NCBI GenBank assembly: GCA_016190245.1
Contig: JACPQY010000085.1
Coordinates: forward strand, 99,095 to 132,860
Reading direction: 5' to 3'
From: Nitrospirota bacterium
GTDB lineage: Bacteria > JACPQY01
DNA: 33,766 nt
In this document: positions 918 to 22,311 of the stretch, piece by piece
Numbering within the stretch: position 1 is the first letter of the stretch
Layout: each line of letters starts with the position of its first letter
Program-made: the position numbers and the translations under genes
The notes under the pieces: model-generated
The model's database searches: none
What the model saw: the letters and a program-made list of their open reading frames with translations, nothing else
What the model was told of the DNA's origin: nothing

Positions 918-973
918 CAGCCCTCCTTCATTCAGATCGCCCTGAGATTGGTTGCGATTCTAGCCCGTGTTCG

Positions 974-1098
974 TTCAACACCCCCCATCCTCTCCGCCAC
1001 GGGCGGATTCCCCCGCAAGGGGGGAAGGGATCGGAAAAGAGGCGACCCACCTCATTTCCCCCTCCCCCTCGATGGGGGAGGGTCAGGGTGGGGGTGAA
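974..1098. repeat. interspersed palindromic repeat, copy 1 (intergenic)
   Basis: Imperfect inverted repeat upstream of the crotonase gene. It begins TTCAACACCCCCCATCC and ends GGGTGGGGGTGAA, with internal CCCCCGCAAGGGGG and CCCCTCGATGGGGG hairpins. The same element recurs at 13479-13591, where it lies inside a coding sequence. Confidence 0.8.
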
Positions 1099-1318
1099 CC
1101 TGCACTCTAGTCCAAACGGGAGGAGTGGGCACGTCAACTCGCCGGTGTGGGAACGTCTTCCTGAGGGCAGAGGGACTCAAACGGGTGCAGAACCGAGTTC
1201 CCTCCGCCTCCAAGCCGGCCTGACGGCGGCCTCCGGCAGGAGGAGCGAGATTTCGCGGACGCGATAGTGCAGGGGCCGTCCGCCTCCCGCCGGCCCCCGC
1301 GAATACCAGCGTCCTACA

Positions 1319-11423: not shown

Positions 11424-12689
11424 ATGTCCACCCCTGCCCTTCAAGTCGTAAAGGAGATCTACGAGGTCGGCGAATCGCCGCCCCTTGGCTGCGTGCCCCG
11501 GGAGATGTACGCCCACGTCATTCGGTCCTCCCGATTCGGCGAGCCGAAGACGGCCTTCCAAGTCGAACGGATCGCCGTGCCCGAGCCGAAGCCCAACGAA
11601 GTGCTCGTGTACGTCATGGCGGCCGGCATCAACTACAACAACGTCTGGGCCGCACGGGGGGTCCCCGTGGACGTGATCAAGGCCCGGCAGAAGCAGGGCG
11701 ATCCCAACGATTTCCACATCGGCGGGAGCGACGCGTCCGGAATCGTCTGGGCCGTGGGTTCGGAGGTGAGGAACGTCAAGGTCGGTGATCCCGTCGTGAT
11801 CCACTGCGGCTCATGGGACCCGCAGGACCCGTTCATCGTCGAGGGCGGCGATCCGATGCTGAGTTCGAGTCAGCTCATCTGGGGCTACGAAACCAACTGG
11901 GGCAGCTTTGCCCAGTTCACGCTCGTTCAGGCCCACCAATGCCTCCCCAAACCACCGGCCCTCACGTGGGAGGCCGCGGCGGCGTACATGCTGGTGGGGG
12001 CCACGGCGTATCGGATGCTCCGCGGCTGGCCTCCGCACACCGTGCAGAGAAACGACGCCGTTCTCGTCTGGGGCGCCGCAGGAGGGCTCGGCTCGATGGC
12101 CGTTCAAATCGTGAAGGCCTTCGGGGGCATCCCGGTCGGAGTCGTTTCCGGAGAGGACAAGTTCGACTACTGCATCAAGCTCGGCGCGAAGGGGTGCATC
12201 AACCGGAAGCGCTTTTCTCACTGGGGCATGCCTCCGCATTGGAAAGACACCGAGGGACAGGCCAGGTGGTGCGAGGGCGCGCGCGCATTCGGCAAGGCGA
12301 TCTGGAACGTGGTGGGCGAGCGCCGCAACCCCCGCATCGTCTTCGAGCACCCTGGGGAGGACACCGTCCCCACCTCCATGTTCGTCTGCGACACCGGCGG
12401 GATGGTCGTGATCTGTGCCGGCACCACGGGGTACAGCGCCGTCTCGGATCTGCGCTACCTCTGGATGCGCCAGAAGCGGTTCCAAGGCTCCCACTTCGCG
12501 AACGACGACCAGTGCGCCGCGCTCAACCACCTCGTCGCCCAGGGCGTGGTGGACCCGTGCCTCTCGCGGACCTTCACCTTCGACGAGATCCCGCTTGCGC
12601 ACCAACTCATGCACGAGAACAAACACCCCAGCGGCAACATGGCCGCCCTCGTGGGCGCGCCGCGGCCGGGCATGAGGGACGTGGGGTGA
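11424..12689 (+). CDS. ccr: crotonyl-CoA carboxylase/reductase
   Basis: 421 residues of the medium-chain dehydrogenase/reductase superfamily, the size of known Ccr. The NADPH-binding loop is [20 protein letters not shown]. Segments diagnostic of Ccr rather than of ordinary MDR reductases are present: [31 protein letters not shown] and [12 protein letters not shown]. They carry the Asn, Glu and His known to bind CO2 in characterised Ccr. The enzyme reductively carboxylates crotonyl-CoA to ethylmalonyl-CoA, the defining step of the ethylmalonyl-CoA pathway. A GAGGAG ribosome binding site precedes the ATG. It is followed by repeat DNA and the mutase gene. Confidence 0.95.
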
Positions 12690-12859: not shown

Positions 12860-15010
12860 GTGAGTCACAAAGACAAGCCGTGGATCATGCGGACGTATGC
12901 GGGGCACTCGTCCGCGGCCGCCTCGAACGAACTGTACCGCGCGAACCTCGCCAAAGGCCAGACGGGACTCTCCATCGCCTTCGACCTGCCCACGCAGATC
13001 GGCTACGACTCGGATCACTCACTCGCCCACGGCGAAGTCGGCAAGGTGGGGGTCCCCATCTGCTCGATCGAGGATCTCGACCGGCTCCTCGAGGGCATCC
13101 CCCTCGACCGGATGAACACTTCGATGACGATCAACGCCACCGCCGCGTGGCTTCTCTCTCTCTACATCGCGCTTGCCGAAAACCGCGGGATCGCTCCGCA
13201 GACACTCCAAGGCACCACGCAAAACGACATCATCAAGGAATACCTCTCGCGCGGGACCTACATCTTCCCGCCCGACCCCTCGATGCGACTCATCACCGAC
13301 GTGGTGCTGTACACCGTGGGGAACGTGCCGAAATGGAACCCGATCAATGTGTGCAGCTATCACCTCCAGGAGGCGGGCGCCACGCCGGTCCAGGAGATCG
13401 CCTTCGCCCTCTGCACGGCAATCGCGGTGCTGGACGGGACACGGGCGGCCCTTGCGCAAAGAAACCGCCAAGCATCCATTCACTACCCCCCATCCTCACC
13501 TTCCCCCGCAAGGGGGGAAGGGACACATGAGGAGGCGCCGCCCCCTTCTTTCCCCTCCCCCTGGACGGGGGAGGGTATGGGTGGGGGTGAACTCCCGCCC
13601 GCTGGAAATCGTCAAGTGCCAAGCCTGACCCCGGATGGGGTGGATGCGATCGTCGGGAGGATGTCGTTCTTCCTGAACTCGGGGATTCGCTTCGTGGAGG
13701 AGATGTGCAAGGTGCGCGCCTTTACCGAGTTGTGGGATGAGCTTGCGCGGAGCCGCTACGGCGTCGAGGATCCGCAATACCGCCGCTTCCGGTACGGCGT
13801 GCAGGTGAACTCGCTCGGCCTCACGGAGAGACAGCCCGAGAACAACATCATGCGGATCGCCTTCGAGGCGCTGGGTGTCGTCCTATCGAAGAGCGCGCGC
13901 GCACGCTCGCTCCAGCTCCCCGCTTGGAACGAGGCCCTCGGACTGCCACGGCCGTGGGACCAGCAGCTCTCGCTCCGGCTCCAGCAGATCCTCGCTCACG
14001 AGACTGATGTTCTCGAATACGAAGACCTCTTCGACGGCTCGCCCGTCATCCGCGCAAAGGTGGACGAGCTCACGGCCGCCGCCAAGGAGGAGATGAATCG
14101 GATCCTGGAGATGGGCGGGATCGTCCGCGCCGTCGAGACGGGATACGTGAAGCAGCGGCTGGTCGAATCGAACGCGGCGAGGCTGCGGGCCATCGAAGCC
14201 GGGGAACAGACCGTGGTCGGTGTGAACAAGCTGACCGAGACCGCCCCCTCGCCTCTCACGGCATCCGACGAGAATCCTCTCATCCTGAAAGTGGACCCCA
14301 GAGCCGGGGAGGAACAACTCGCCCGGCTGCGCGCATTTCGATCGCGGCGAAACGCGAGGGACGTGGAGGCGGCGCTCAAGGGTCTGGGGGATACCGCGCG
14401 ACAGGGGGCGAACCTCATGCCGGCCTCCATCCGCGCCGCCCACGCGGGCGTCACAACAGGTGAGTGGGCCGACGTCCTGCGCGAGGTCTTCGGTGAATAC
14501 CGGGCCCCAACAGGCGTAGCCCCGTCCATCGGAACAGTCCCTTCGAATGGATCGGGGACCGCACGCAATGCCCCCGATGAAGCCCAACGCGCGATGGGGC
14601 GCAGAGTGCGCATCCTCATCGGCAAGCCGGGCCTGGACGGGCACTCGAACGGCGCGGAACAGATCGCCGTGCGCGCCCGGGACGCAGGGATGGAGGTGAT
14701 CTACGCCGGCATCCGCCTCACACCCGAACAGATCGCCGTCTCCGCGCTCCAGGAAGACGTGGATCTCATCGGCCTCAGCATCCTCTCGGGTTCGCACGTT
14801 GAGCTCGTGACCGAGGTCATGTCACACCTCAACAAACAAGGCCTGGTCGACGTGCCCGTCGTCGTCGGCGGCATCATCCCCCCCCCCGATCACGACGCCC
14901 TCCGGAAGCTTGGCGTCAAACGGATCTACACGCCGAAGGATTTCGAGCTGAACGCCATCCTCTCCGACCTCCTCACCCTCGCCGCCGAGGCCCGGCGTCA
15001 TTCATCCTGA
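12860..15010 (+). CDS. ecm: ethylmalonyl-CoA mutase (B12-dependent)
   Basis: 716 residues from GTG 12860. That start is chosen because the family begins with the KDKPW...RTYAGHS segment seen right after it; a TTG at 12824 would add 12 unrelated residues. The N-terminal TIM barrel has FDLPTQIGYDSDH, GEVGKVGVP, MNTSMTINATAAWLL and KWNPINVCSYHLQEAGATP. The C-terminal cobalamin domain has GKPGLDGHSNGAEQIA, the DxHxxG B12-His motif near residue 595. The PTQxGYDSDH and GEVGKVGVP signatures favour ethylmalonyl-CoA over classical methylmalonyl-CoA mutase, as does ccr next door. Residues about 207-244 are a repeat-derived insertion in the barrel half. A second imperfect palindrome (14520-14556) lies in the linker before the B12 domain. 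Confidence 0.92.
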   Translation: MSHKDKPWIMRTYAGHSSAAASNELYRANLAKGQTGLSIAFDLPTQIGYDSDHSLAHGEVGKVGVPICSIEDLDRLLEGIPLDRMNTSMTINATAAWLLSLYIALAENRGIAPQTLQGTTQNDIIKEYLSRGTYIFPPDPSMRLITDVVLYTVGNVPKWNPINVCSYHLQEAGATPVQEIAFALCTAIAVLDGTRAALAQRNRQASIHYPPSSPSPARGEGTHEEAPPPSFPSPWTGEGMGGGELPPAGNRQVPSLTPDGVDAIVGRMSFFLNSGIRFVEEMCKVRAFTELWDELARSRYGVEDPQYRRFRYGVQVNSLGLTERQPENNIMRIAFEALGVVLSKSARARSLQLPAWNEALGLPRPWDQQLSLRLQQILAHETDVLEYEDLFDGSPVIRAKVDELTAAAKEEMNRILEMGGIVRAVETGYVKQRLVESNAARLRAIEAGEQTVVGVNKLTETAPSPLTASDENPLILKVDPRAGEEQLARLRAFRSRRNARDVEAALKGLGDTARQGANLMPASIRAAHAGVTTGEWADVLREVFGEYRAPTGVAPSIGTVPSNGSGTARNAPDEAQRAMGRRVRILIGKPGLDGHSNGAEQIAVRARDAGMEVIYAGIRLTPEQIAVSALQEDVDLIGLSILSGSHVELVTEVMSHLNKQGLVDVPVVVGGIIPPPDHDALRKLGVKRIYTPKDFELNAILSDLLTLAAEARRHSS
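13479..13591. repeat. interspersed palindromic repeat, copy 2 (inside ecm)
   Basis: TTCACTACCCCCCATCC at the left and GGGTGGGGGTGAA at the right, with CCCCCGCAAGGGGGGAAGGG inside. It is the same element as 974-1098. It is read in frame as a Pro/Gly/Ser-rich stretch of about 38 residues between conserved barrel segments of the mutase. Confidence 0.85.
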
Positions 15011-16556: not shown

Positions 16557-19397
16557 TCAGGTCGCCGGATCCGGCCGGGAACGAAAATAGGCCAGGAGTT
16601 CCCGTTTGCCGAGGGTGCGCTCCGGCGAAGCCGCTCTCTGCTCCCGGGGAATGCCCTGCCGATCCGCCAAGGCGTCCGGGAGCGCATTCTCAGGGATCAC
16701 GATCACGTTGTCGCGGGACAGCTCCTTGACGCGATAGAAAACTCCATCCAACCGAATCACTTCCCCTCGCTCAATTCGGCCGATCTTCTTTGCTCTCTTC
16801 GGCAAAGGCGGATCGATCATGTCTTGAACGAGTTCCCTGATCGCACGAGGACGCACGCGGGAAAGGCACAGACTCTCCCGCGATCCCCTCACCACGCTCC
16901 ACAAGATAGCTGCTTCCGATTGAATGGGCTTGACTTGGACCTTTCTGACCCCGCTTGTTCCATCGTGATGGGGTACTCGCACCACGAGTCCGCCCTTCTG
17001 ACTCTTTGCGGTGTAGCGCCGTTGTCCCGTCGTTGTCGGCTGCGGCAGGGGTTTGTGGACCCAAAGCTTGGGCGTGTCCACGTTGGCGGGCTGCTGAAAC
17101 AGGCTGAGATCCATCAGTTGCCTTCGCCATGTCGCCTTCAGCTTTCCGAGTTCCCGCACAATGGGAACGGCTCGCCGTCTCAGGAATCCGGCCCAGTCCG
17201 GCGCAAGTGCCAACAGCGCGACTCCCGGCCGTGGTCGCAACTCATGTTCAAACGAACCATTCTCCAGAACCACCAAGGCTCCTTTTTCATCCTTCTTGAC
17301 GCAGGGGCGAACGGCGGTCTCGCACAGTATGCGAGGTCGCCAGGTGTGCGGCGGCGTGGCGGCGAGCAGGGCGGCGTCCTGCGCATGATTGAACAAATCC
17401 GTACGATCCTTCCTTGGGAAGTTCTCCTGTCGAGCCTCGCGGTCGTGGAAGAGCCAAGACATGCGGAGGTCGCGGGTCCATCGACCGGAAACCACCTGGA
17501 GGTGCGGTTTCCCGAGGATATACGCCGGGGACGGCGGTTCGACTCCATACGTCTTGAAAAGTTCGGCGATTTCCGCAGCAAACGCTCCGCTTCGGGCGGC
17601 GACCCGCGCCAAGGGAGTCGGGTCGTCCGGGTAGTTCGCGCCCGCCGGGAGCAGAAGAAGCATGCGCTTGAAGTCGGGCATGTTGATTCGCCTGACTCTT
17701 TCTTCAAAACGTAGCCATTCCTCCTCCTTCTTCCACTCGCTCGGCAGTCTGTTGCCTTTCCCCGTGTCGGGATGATTGCATGTGTGGCAGGCAGCCACGC
17801 GATTGAGTTGGAGGTCGGGACCACCGCGTGCCCTCGGCACGATGTGGTCCATCTCCGTTGCCTCCACCGGGATCTCCTTCCCGCAATACATGCAAGTCCC
17901 GCCTGATTCGCCGTGCAGTCTCTCCCGGATGGACAGGGTCTTCCGCTCAGTTTGCTTCCCCTTCCCCACCCGCTCCGTCTGAGGGTCGGGAATCTCCAAG
18001 GTAAGAAGGGCCACCGGACCATGTCGCCACGCTACCTGACCCTTCTTCCCTCGAATGAACAAGATCTCCTCCAGTCTCCTCAACACGCGCTGATCATGCT
18101 GCTCCCGACGCGGATTCGGGGCGTGGCGGCCCCGCATCTGTTGCCAGGCCAGCCCTGCATCCATCATGCTTCCGCCACCAGCGGCCAGATCGAGATGTTG
18201 CATGCACAACTTGGCACGGCCTCGGCGAGGAGTACGATTCAGAAGATCGTTCAACTGCGGAAGCATCGGGTGGTCGAGGTTCCATTGCCCCTTGGAGTTC
18301 TTCATCCATCTCCTCGGCGATTCGATGGAATCCAGGTACTTGCTGATGTTGTCCTCCGACGGGGCGCGTTCGGTCACGGGGACCTTCGGACCTTTCGGGA
18401 AATCAGATCCGCTCGCCCGTTTTTCCCACCAATCAAGCAATGGCTTCCGCTCCTCATTCGACAGGGAGCGAAACTCCCTCGCACCTGTCCATTTTGGGAC
18501 ACGCAGATTACCGACGGCCGCGCGGAATGCCTTGAATCGGACCTCGGGTTTCTTGAGTCTTGGCGTCTTCTTCCCGCACCACGAGCAACCCGACCTCAAT
18601 CGATTGTCGAATCGGGCGGGGCGTAAAACTCTGTTCAGAAGACCGACCAATTCCTTGCACCACCGCTCGATAACCATTGGCTCCATCCGGTGTTTTTCGC
18701 CGAACCGTTGCACGATCACTCGAACAGCGTTTTCCTTGATCTGCCGGGGAACCGCTTTACGCGGTTCGGGTGGCCTGTTCAGCGAGTTCTCATAGGCAGC
18801 CGTCAGCTTCGGTCTGGCGCGACGCTCGACCTCGGCCCTGAGTTGCTCCGCCATCGTGCCGGCCTCTCTCAGGATGCAGCAGGATTCGAGAAAGTCGTGG
18901 AGCCGCGCATCGGGCAGATCCTCGAAATCCTTGTCGTCATACCTGTAGCCGCGTTTCTTGAAGATCAGCGTTATCGCTCGAACAAAACCACGGGCATCGA
19001 GACCATCCTTCTGCGCCACTTCAATCCAACCCGGACCGCCGCAGGGGTCGGCCCCTTTCGTTTCGTAAGTGCCCGGTTTCGGCCAGAATCTCTTGTCGGC
19101 CAGTACGTCATAGGGGTCCGGAAGCCGCTCTCCGTTCGGAAGCTTCTGTCTCAGAACCCATGACCGAAGGCGCGCGAGTCGCATTTTCTTGGCGTGGCGG
19201 GTCCTCCTCCCCCTTCGCAGGATCCGGCGCTGTTCAAGTGTGGCATCGTGAAAATCCACATACGTTTCGGCATGAAGGATTTCGCGATTCCTGACAACGG
19301 CGATGCCGCCCGCGGCCTCACCGAGATCAACACCCACCCGCACAGAATTCAGAAAACTGTCAACACGCGATGCCAAGTCGGGAGGAACGCCATTCAT
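16557..19397 (-). CDS. cas9: Cas9, subtype II-C2-like
   Basis: 946 residues, compact for Cas9. Seen in order: RuvC-I VGVDLGEAAGGIAVV (D24); an Arg-rich bridge helix near 56-80; a REC region with C271-SW-C274 and C398-MQ-H401, a possible zinc site; RuvC-II LLTLEIPDP (E468); an HNH domain with EMDHIVPRARGG (D517, H518), N532 and two Cys pairs (C502/C505, C537/C540); RuvC-III LFNHAQDAALLAA (H671, D674); and a C-terminal PAM-interacting region with KSQKGGLVVRVPHHDG. All nuclease residues expected for RuvC and HNH are present, so it should cut both strands. From memory, segments such as RLARLRSWVLRQK and FVRAITLIFKKRG closely resemble ARMAN-1 Cas9, the II-C2 reference. No Shine-Dalgarno precedes the ATG; the tracrRNA terminator ends about ten bases upstream. 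Confidence 0.95.
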   Translation of the reverse strand: MNGVPPDLASRVDSFLNSVRVGVDLGEAAGGIAVVRNREILHAETYVDFHDATLEQRRILRRGRRTRHAKKMRLARLRSWVLRQKLPNGERLPDPYDVLADKRFWPKPGTYETKGADPCGGPGWIEVAQKDGLDARGFVRAITLIFKKRGYRYDDKDFEDLPDARLHDFLESCCILREAGTMAEQLRAEVERRARPKLTAAYENSLNRPPEPRKAVPRQIKENAVRVIVQRFGEKHRMEPMVIERWCKELVGLLNRVLRPARFDNRLRSGCSWCGKKTPRLKKPEVRFKAFRAAVGNLRVPKWTGAREFRSLSNEERKPLLDWWEKRASGSDFPKGPKVPVTERAPSEDNISKYLDSIESPRRWMKNSKGQWNLDHPMLPQLNDLLNRTPRRGRAKLCMQHLDLAAGGGSMMDAGLAWQQMRGRHAPNPRREQHDQRVLRRLEEILFIRGKKGQVAWRHGPVALLTLEIPDPQTERVGKGKQTERKTLSIRERLHGESGGTCMYCGKEIPVEATEMDHIVPRARGGPDLQLNRVAACHTCNHPDTGKGNRLPSEWKKEEEWLRFEERVRRINMPDFKRMLLLLPAGANYPDDPTPLARVAARSGAFAAEIAELFKTYGVEPPSPAYILGKPHLQVVSGRWTRDLRMSWLFHDREARQENFPRKDRTDLFNHAQDAALLAATPPHTWRPRILCETAVRPCVKKDEKGALVVLENGSFEHELRPRPGVALLALAPDWAGFLRRRAVPIVRELGKLKATWRRQLMDLSLFQQPANVDTPKLWVHKPLPQPTTTGQRRYTAKSQKGGLVVRVPHHDGTSGVRKVQVKPIQSEAAILWSVVRGSRESLCLSRVRPRAIRELVQDMIDPPLPKRAKKIGRIERGEVIRLDGVFYRVKELSRDNVIVIPENALPDALADRQGIPREQRAASPERTLGKRELLAYFRSRPDPAT

Positions 19398-19718: not shown

Positions 19719-20825
19719 ATGGAACAGGTGATCGTGGATCAATTCGGGGCCTATCTGTCCAAGAAGAGCGAAAGGCTCGTGGTGAAGGCGCCGAGAGCGC
19801 CGGAACTGCGGCCCGCGGATGGGATTCAGCTTCTGCTCCCGTTCCCCGACCCGCCGGATGCCGGCGAGGCCAGACCGGCGCCCCTTCGGAAGGGAACGAT
19901 TCTGGCCGAGATTCCATTTTTCCGAATCTGCGAGATCCTCGTGACCTCCAGGGGGGTGTCGCTCTCGACCGACCTGATCGAGGAGTGTTGCCGGAGGGGG
20001 ATTCGGATCACACTACTGGCGGGGAGCCGACCCTTCGCCATGCTCTCCTCGCCGATGCTGACCGCCACGGTGCAAACGCGCCGCGAACAGATGCAGGCGT
20101 ATCTGGACGAACGCGGGTTCGAACTGGCGCGCGCGTTCTGCGCGGGCAAGGTCCGCAACCAGATCCGCCTTCTCCGTTACTACGGCAAGTATCTCAAGGA
20201 GGCTCACCCCGATCGGTACGAGCAGGTAGCGTCCGGCACGGGGGCGATTGAGGCCATCGAAGGGAAACTCCGCGAAGTGCAGGCGGCGGACATTGATTCG
20301 GCGCGCGAGGTCCTCATGGGTCTGGAGGGCACGGCGGCGCGTGTCTACTGGTCGGGCATTCGATGCCTCTTGGAAGGCCACATCGAGTTCTCCGGGCGCG
20401 AGCATCGGGGGGCCGCCGACCCCGTGAACGCTTCGCTCAATTACGGCTACGGGATTCTCTACTCCGTCGTGTGGGGCGCCATCCTGAACGCCGGGCTCGA
20501 GCCGTTCGCCGGCTTCCTGCACGTGGACCGGCCGGGGAAGCCGTCGCTCGTCCTCGACATGACCGAGGAGTTCCGTGCCCCGGTGGTGGATCGGGCCGTG
20601 GTCGGCCTGTTCACGAGAGACCAGAAGGTGGGGATGGCAGAGGGCCTCCTTGATGCGGAAAGCCGGAAGCTCATTGCCGATCGCGTGAAGGACCGGCTCT
20701 CGGCCCCGGAACCATATCGGGGGGCGAAGTACCAAGTGCGCTCGATCATCCAGGCGCAGGCGCGCCGCGTGGCCGTGGCCGTCCGGCGAGAGGGGCGATA
20801 CGAGCCCTTCGGATTCACCTGGTAG
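19719..20825 (+). CDS. cas1: CRISPR-associated integrase Cas1
   Basis: 368 residues. The catalytic metal-binding residues are visible: E203 in GLEGTAARVYW, H268 in FAGFLHVDRPGKPSLVLD and D280 in LVLDMTEEF. The length and the GFLHVDRPGKPSL motif are those of type I-like Cas1 rather than the roughly 300-residue Cas1 of ordinary II-A/II-C loci. That fits an adaptation module that includes Cas4. It integrates new spacers as a complex with Cas2. Residues about 31-57 are a Pro-rich stretch (LLLPFPDPPDAGEARPAP) that looks like an insertion in the N-terminal beta domain. The start is fixed by AGGAGGG five bases upstream. Confidence 0.95.
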   Translation: MEQVIVDQFGAYLSKKSERLVVKAPRAPELRPADGIQLLLPFPDPPDAGEARPAPLRKGTILAEIPFFRICEILVTSRGVSLSTDLIEECCRRGIRITLLAGSRPFAMLSSPMLTATVQTRREQMQAYLDERGFELARAFCAGKVRNQIRLLRYYGKYLKEAHPDRYEQVASGTGAIEAIEGKLREVQAADIDSAREVLMGLEGTAARVYWSGIRCLLEGHIEFSGREHRGAADPVNASLNYGYGILYSVVWGAILNAGLEPFAGFLHVDRPGKPSLVLDMTEEFRAPVVDRAVVGLFTRDQKVGMAEGLLDAESRKLIADRVKDRLSAPEPYRGAKYQVRSIIQAQARRVAVAVRREGRYEPFGFTW

Positions 20826-21779: not shown

Positions 21780-21812
21780 CTGAAAGGGCGGGCACATGGC
21801 CCGCCCTTTCAG
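21780..21812. terminator. bidirectional hairpin between cas4 and the array
   Basis: A perfect 14-bp stem (CTGAAAGGGCGGGC and its complement, loop ACATG) whose right arm is the first seven bases of repeat 1. Both directions read GC stem then TTTC, so it can end the cas operon on the plus strand and a pre-crRNA from the minus strand. Smaller hairpins lie at 21718-21735 and 21767-21781 (AGCCGAAAATCGGCT). Confidence 0.55.
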
Positions 21813-22311
21813 AGGCTACCAAGATGCTTCCGAGAATGAAAGACTCGGTCACGCGGGCCTCTAGGGCGGCGCGGTCGGCTTTCAGAGGCTACCAAGATGC
21901 TTCCGAGAATGAAAGTCCTAAATGGAGGGCGTCCCGTTTCCGGGCGGTTTCTTTCAGAGGCTACCAAGATGCTTCCGAGAATGAAAGCCTCCTCAATGTC
22001 CTGCGTAAACGCGTCGCTCAGTCCTTTCAGAGGCTACCAAGATGCTTCCGAGAATGAAAGGTTGCTATCCGGGGCTCGGCGGCGATTGCGGATCGGGACT
22101 TTCAGAGGCTACCAAGATGCTTCCGAGAATGAAAGATGCCCGTGCTGTCGGCGGGTACTAGAGAGCCACGACTTTCAGAGGCTACCAAGATGCTTCCGAG
22201 AATGAAAGGGCTGCTGCCGTGCCTCCGGGAGCGGCTGTTACTGTACAGTGGACGGCCGTCCACTGTACAGTATGAGCTTGTGGGCGCCCGAACCGCTTCC
22301 CGGAATGAAAC
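21806..22311 (-). CRISPR. CRISPR array: six identical 37-nt repeats plus one decayed repeat
   Basis: Repeats (plus strand CTTTCAGAGGCTACC...GAGAATGAAAG) start at 21806, 21879, 21951, 22024, 22099 and 22172 and are identical. Five spacers of 36, 35, 36, 38 and 36 nt lie between them. The repeat ends are inverted (CTTTCA/TGAAAG). A decayed repeat at 22275-22311 keeps only its inner half (GCTTCCCGGAATGAAAC), 66 bp after repeat 6. The decayed copy is far from cas4, so new spacers are probably added at the cas4 side. The tracrRNA anti-repeat implies that the functional crRNA is the minus strand, transcribed from the decayed end towards cas4. No clear -10 is seen within the repeat. Confidence 0.97.
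22239..22272. promoter_or_regulatory. nested 34-bp perfect palindrome beside the array
   Basis: T, ACTGTACAGT, GGACGGCCGTCC, ACTGTACAGT, A: a 34-bp perfect palindrome made of two identical 10-bp palindromes whose centres are 22 bp apart, with a 12-bp palindrome between. It lies between repeat 6 and the decayed repeat, on the side from which minus-strand crRNA transcription should enter. It may be a double operator, or a hairpin. Confidence 0.55.

Follow-up and report, generated by a model that had tools for sequence, protein, structure and literature searches.

The window analysed here, a stretch of 33,766 nucleotides, belongs to a draft genome of 86 contigs that is 85% complete (G000), with a GC content of about 63% in sampled genes. 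A second genome of the phylum, from a sister genus (G001), was used for comparison. The window contains an ecm-like mutase gene and its upstream neighbour ccr, two copies of a repeated element, one of them inside ecm, and a CRISPR locus:

959-966: left 8-bp target duplication of the intergenic copy, TCTAGCCC, matching 1106-1113 at 7 of 8 bases
967-1105, forward strand: intergenic MITE copy, 139 bp, covariance-model match
1106-1113: right 8-bp target duplication of the intergenic copy, TCTAGTCC, matching 959-966 at 7 of 8 bases
11424-12689, forward strand: ccr, crotonyl-CoA carboxylase/reductase (NCBIfam TIGR01751, 570.6 bits, cut-off 378.55)
12860-15010, forward strand: ecm-like gene, adenosylcobalamin-dependent acyl-CoA mutase, GTG start, 716 aa
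13472-13598, forward strand: MITE copy inside ecm, 127 bp, forward frame 0, ASIHYPPSSPSPARGEG...PSPWTGEGMGGGELPP
13499-13521, forward strand: hairpin A of the ecm copy, arms 13499-13507 and 13513-13521 (consensus structure of 11 copies)
13553-13575, forward strand: hairpin B of the ecm copy, arms 13553-13561 and 13567-13575 (consensus structure of 11 copies)
16557-19397, reverse strand: Cas9d (NF049971, 702 bits, cut-off 375)
19719-20825, forward strand: Cas1 of the type II-D-like locus
21806-22212: CRISPR array, six copies of a 37-bp repeat at a spacing of 72-75 bp

The ecm product contains MM_CoA_mutase and B12-binding domains, shares 52-81% identity by segment with Ecm-type proteins, and keeps the residues that do not vary among 31 aligned mutases. 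The putative name ecm was given because of this identity and the adjoining ccr, ecm lying directly 3' of it, with no activity-specific model behind the name. It is the sole copy in its genome; a second mutase-like match on contig C71 has 57% identity over part of its length only. The frame of 716 codons runs without a stop across the insert. The two parts of ecm have dN values of 0.13 and 0.22 with near-saturated dS; the resulting dN/dS is mostly ancestral and is no proof of activity after insertion. A type II-D-like CRISPR locus, comprising Cas9d, a Cas1 and repeats, adjoins ecm.

The initial annotation of this DNA had described an intergenic palindromic element at 974-1098 that recurs at 13479-13591, in frame within ecm, as about 38 extra residues. 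The recurrence was confirmed by covariance-model matches at both sites, with the frame open in ecm, and the repeat proved longer than described at both places (967-1105 and 13472-13598). The residue count had to be corrected, as approximately 80 distinct Ecm homologs have about 57 residues fewer in the loop that joins IAVLD to the SFF strand, and the element segment is absent from the G001 ortholog as well. Conserved sequence is found again on either side of the insert, as had been claimed, and no homolog without the repeat was found to have the same insert. The element contributes 42 codons to ecm, or 45 if the 8-bp duplication is counted, and about 12-15 of the 57 or so extra residues are left over.

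The ecm copy matches covariance-model positions 1-127 at 130.6 bits. Of its 127 bases, 24 depart from the consensus, and these changes are not concentrated at third codon positions; thus, no protein-level constraint is seen on the insert. An 8-bp target duplication was not found at this copy, where the flanking 8-mers match at only two of eight bases. A 12-bp imperfect repeat nearby was considered as a target duplication and rejected, given that 190 of 3000 shuffles reach it. In the AlphaFold2 model of Ecm (mean pLDDT 78.3), residues 216-256 have a pLDDT below 50 and fall between two helices, one reaching to 207 and the next beginning at 260, and the model superposes on human and bacterial methylmalonyl-CoA mutases with a TM score of about 0.82. 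The predicted fold of Ecm is intact, with the insert modelled as a disordered loop. Together, the predicted fold and the low-pLDDT segment support a tolerated surface loop, which does not in itself demonstrate activity.

An alignment of eleven canonical copies, drawn from both genera, spans 127 columns and contains one single-base gap. The covariance model derived from it was searched in both genomes and recovered 63 distinct places, many of them partial or variant. The element is 127 bp long, multicopy, contains two internal GC-rich hairpins and has no transposase inside. Along 111-125 bp, the best-matching other copies in G000 share 79-85% identity with the window repeat, the lowest E-value being 4e-31, and such genome-wide matches are far beyond chance. 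The 12 extra bases of the intergenic copy are a nested small palindrome; several copies contain nested palindromes of this small kind, for example CCGCCACGGGCGG and GTCCGCCACGGCGGAC (967-1105; L127; L147). Variant copies with an altered right half and near-identical context occur at L162 (G001:C34) and L164 (start of G001:C1). A search of 145 genomes, with at most six scored candidates per genome, recovered no full 127-bp unit outside the two genomes, and in the others the matches were limited to hairpin halves of about 40 bp. Rfam at the gathering threshold matched only a tRNA in the window.

The flanks of these copies indicate how the element moves. The abutting 8-mers match at seven or eight of eight bases in 11 of 62 copies, a number reached in none of 20,000 permutations, and shifting the right 8-mer by 1-4 bases leaves no copy at 7-8/8. 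Since the matches are significant and lie exactly at the ends, the unit moves by transposition, duplicating 8 bp. The terminal inverted repeats are GTAACCGTTCA on the left and, for the right end reversed, GTAAGCGTTCA, with one base different, so that the ends start GTAACCG and GTAAGCG. IS66 ends begin GTAAGCG and are accompanied by 8-bp direct repeats (PMC11946415), and GTAACCG stands at the other end of IS66-family elements (PMC12888890). In addition, the GTAAGCGTTCA ends are common to a second MITE family with exact 8-bp duplications (G000:C50 and G000:C54). The element is a MITE with IS66-type inverted-repeat ends; the initial description of it as palindromic was correct, and these ends and the 8-bp duplications were missing from it. 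The second family has GTAAGCGTTCAGC ends and a CAGTCAGC-rich interior, and two copies of it, both with stops in every phase, are located as follows:

L190:2132-2252 (G000:C50): second-MITE copy with an exact 8-bp duplication
L191:2061-2174 (G000:C54): second-MITE copy with an exact 8-bp duplication

Element and target duplication together amount to 127 + 8 = 135 bp, and because this length divides into 45 codons an insertion keeps the frame wherever it lands. Among the 11 canonical copies, nine have no stop in forward frame 0 and ten have none in reverse frame 0; the remaining phases usually contain stops. The consensus forward reading of the element is VSVQHPPSSPSPSRGEGTRRSAPHPLFPSPSTGEGEGGGERL. 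By inspection, in a partial survey of copies, the PSPxxGEG phase is the one read in nearly all coding copies.

Further coding copies were indeed found on searching the two genomes, which yielded about ten more in-frame cases of the element or half of it with protein-family support on both flanks. Homology was used for this classification because a codon score is too weak on short flanks. In one class, a single family or solved chain is matched on both sides of the element:

G000:C79:30859: TraC, in frame
G000:C62:9361: B12-binding protein, in frame
G001:C6:76554: CarA, in frame
G001:C16:113878: MFS transporter, in frame
G001:C21:50707: thiolase-like protein, in frame

In the other class, different domains are found on the two sides of one frame:

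G001:C15:94530: kinase-AAA-TPR protein, copy with an exact duplication
G001:C13:48546: radical SAM/SPASM-PCP_red protein
G001:C23:37489, C20:58435, C23:35650 and C60:2294 (weak match): surface proteins whose domains are MopE, carboxypeptidase-like or Ig-like, among which some cases hold the hairpin half only

Two more copies stand near a start codon:

G000:C25:4179: canonical copy in frame after an MDSLR start, upstream of a DUF1302 match
G000:C63:90305: canonical copy in frame just after the start codon of another gene

The insert is missing from the orthologs of two of these genes, CarA in G000 and the B12-binding protein in G001. Thus, with orthologs of Ecm, CarA and the B12-binding protein that lack it, three insertions are each specific to one genus. 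Where both flanks of apparently out-of-frame copies matched a family on scanning the flanking open reading frames, the families differed, so such copies are intergenic; a gene split out of frame was not recognised in the sampled copies. G001:C16:71890 and G001:C17:69583 were considered as insertions within an open reading frame and not counted, as they sit at a two-gene junction. Copies at two-gene junctions leave an open frame that would fuse the neighbours (L160:1288-2874; L120; G001), and the would-be fusions join an AhpC/TSA-like protein to a pyridine nucleotide-disulphide oxidoreductase and a beta-helix protein to a PKD protein. Judged from these sequence comparisons, the element appears to behave as a coding palindromic element, in frame in conserved genes and absent from their homologs.

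Several other explanations of the insert have to be weighed. It is unlikely that ecm is a dying gene, in which the element disrupts the mutase and the frame stays open by chance in GC-rich, stop-poor sequence. Stops are few in such sequence and the 24 differences show no third-position excess, as decay would have it, but the 716-residue frame is intact, dN is low against near-saturated dS in both halves, the invariant mutase residues are kept, the gene is the only ecm copy and directly follows an intact ccr, and in-frame inserts are present in several other conserved genes. The divergence without third-position bias also counts against the insert being a selected functional addition to Ecm, for example a flexible regulatory or partner-binding loop. 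The near-uniform use of the PSPxxGEG phase speaks for selection, but the insert is predicted to be disordered and similar inserts occur in unrelated proteins, which makes a selected loop decidedly unlikely.

An assembly or binning artefact, with a repeat collapsed or misjoined inside ecm, is very improbable. The genome is a fragmented, incomplete draft and repeats are typical places of misassembly; however, the ecm copy is distinct in sequence from the consensus, its flanks are two halves of one gene joined without a frame shift, and a second, separately assembled genome has comparable in-frame cases. The element may also be compared with a REP or BIME moved by REP-associated tyrosine (Y1) transposases in place of an IS66-type MITE. 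The two inverted GC-rich hairpins look like a REP doublet, half elements are also found alone, and G000 has eight Y1 transposase genes. However, the end repeats and the exact target duplications of 8 bp are typical of DDE-type transposition, and the element was not recognised by a string scan around the Y1 genes, where two loci read in detail held none; one stretch about 200 bp from a Y1 gene does give a weak, partial hit to the element model (L151; G000:C22:37211-37300). A REP origin is improbable.

The insert in ecm is very probably a 127-bp non-autonomous MITE with IS66-type ends that kept the frame and is tolerated, with Ecm most likely still active. A transposase recognising the GTAACCG and GTAAGCG ends would act in trans; none was found in the present genomes, where IS66 transposase (PF03050) and TnpB (PF05717) gave no match in either draft assembly. 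A copy would have inserted into ecm after the lineage split from the sister genus. Element and duplication, at 135 bp, would retain the frame at any landing site, and the stops in the end repeats would close most phases, usually leaving one readable phase per strand. Landing in a readable phase and in a surface loop may then add a flexible segment rich in Pro, Ser and Gly, and the insertion would survive because the protein tolerates it. Activity of Ecm is most likely retained, and the insert would have no role of its own. It is a tentative possibility that a length which with its duplication is a multiple of three, together with an end-anchored readable phase on each strand, allows low-cost spread through the coding DNA of an uncultured phylum, seeding flexible linkers in enzymes.

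The value of the system lies in its ortholog pairs with and without the insert across two genera (Ecm, CarA and the B12-binding protein) and in the simple arithmetic reason for frame retention. Together these make the tolerance or recruitment of transposon segments by proteins directly testable in enzymes for which standard assays exist. The findings also widen the range of coding palindromic transposons to a phylum distant from Rickettsia.

Coding palindromic repeats have already been described in Rickettsia, among enterobacterial and other MITEs, and in the form of intragenic REPs of several bacteria (PMC10969869, PMC2229807, PMC3733652). The likeness to Rickettsia in an unrelated, GC-rich genome that the initial annotation proposed is right in kind, and its novelty is reduced by coding MITEs and REPs, also of GC-rich genomes, that had been described before (PMC3733652, PMC2229807). 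Rickettsia palindromic elements (RPE) are likewise short palindromes that stand in frame in unrelated conserved genes and between genes, and an RPE-bearing guanylate kinase is translated and active (PMC2229807; RPE also PMC10969869). The likeness is one of behaviour, whereas the present element differs in its host, with about 63% GC in sampled genes, its IS66-type ends, its 8-bp duplications and its two GC-rich hairpins. Intragenic GTAG and CGTC REPs are repeats or dimers in the coding regions of several genomes that add 20-30 residues or more (Di Nocera 2013, PMC3733652); in contrast, the present unit is 127 bp long, with inverted-repeat ends, 8-bp duplications and no recognised Y1 association. 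ERIC and other coding MITEs are short transposons whose open phases are fused in frame to genes (Delihas 2007, PMC2229807). ERIC is also 127 bp long, but the ends differ, being here of IS66 type with 8-bp duplications, and the host is different. IS66-family insertion sequences share the GTAAGCG and GTAACCG ends and the 8-bp direct repeats (PMC11946415, PMC12888890), whereas the present element has no transposase inside and none was found in the two genomes. Thus, what is new is an element family of the known coding-palindrome kind that carries IS66-type ends.
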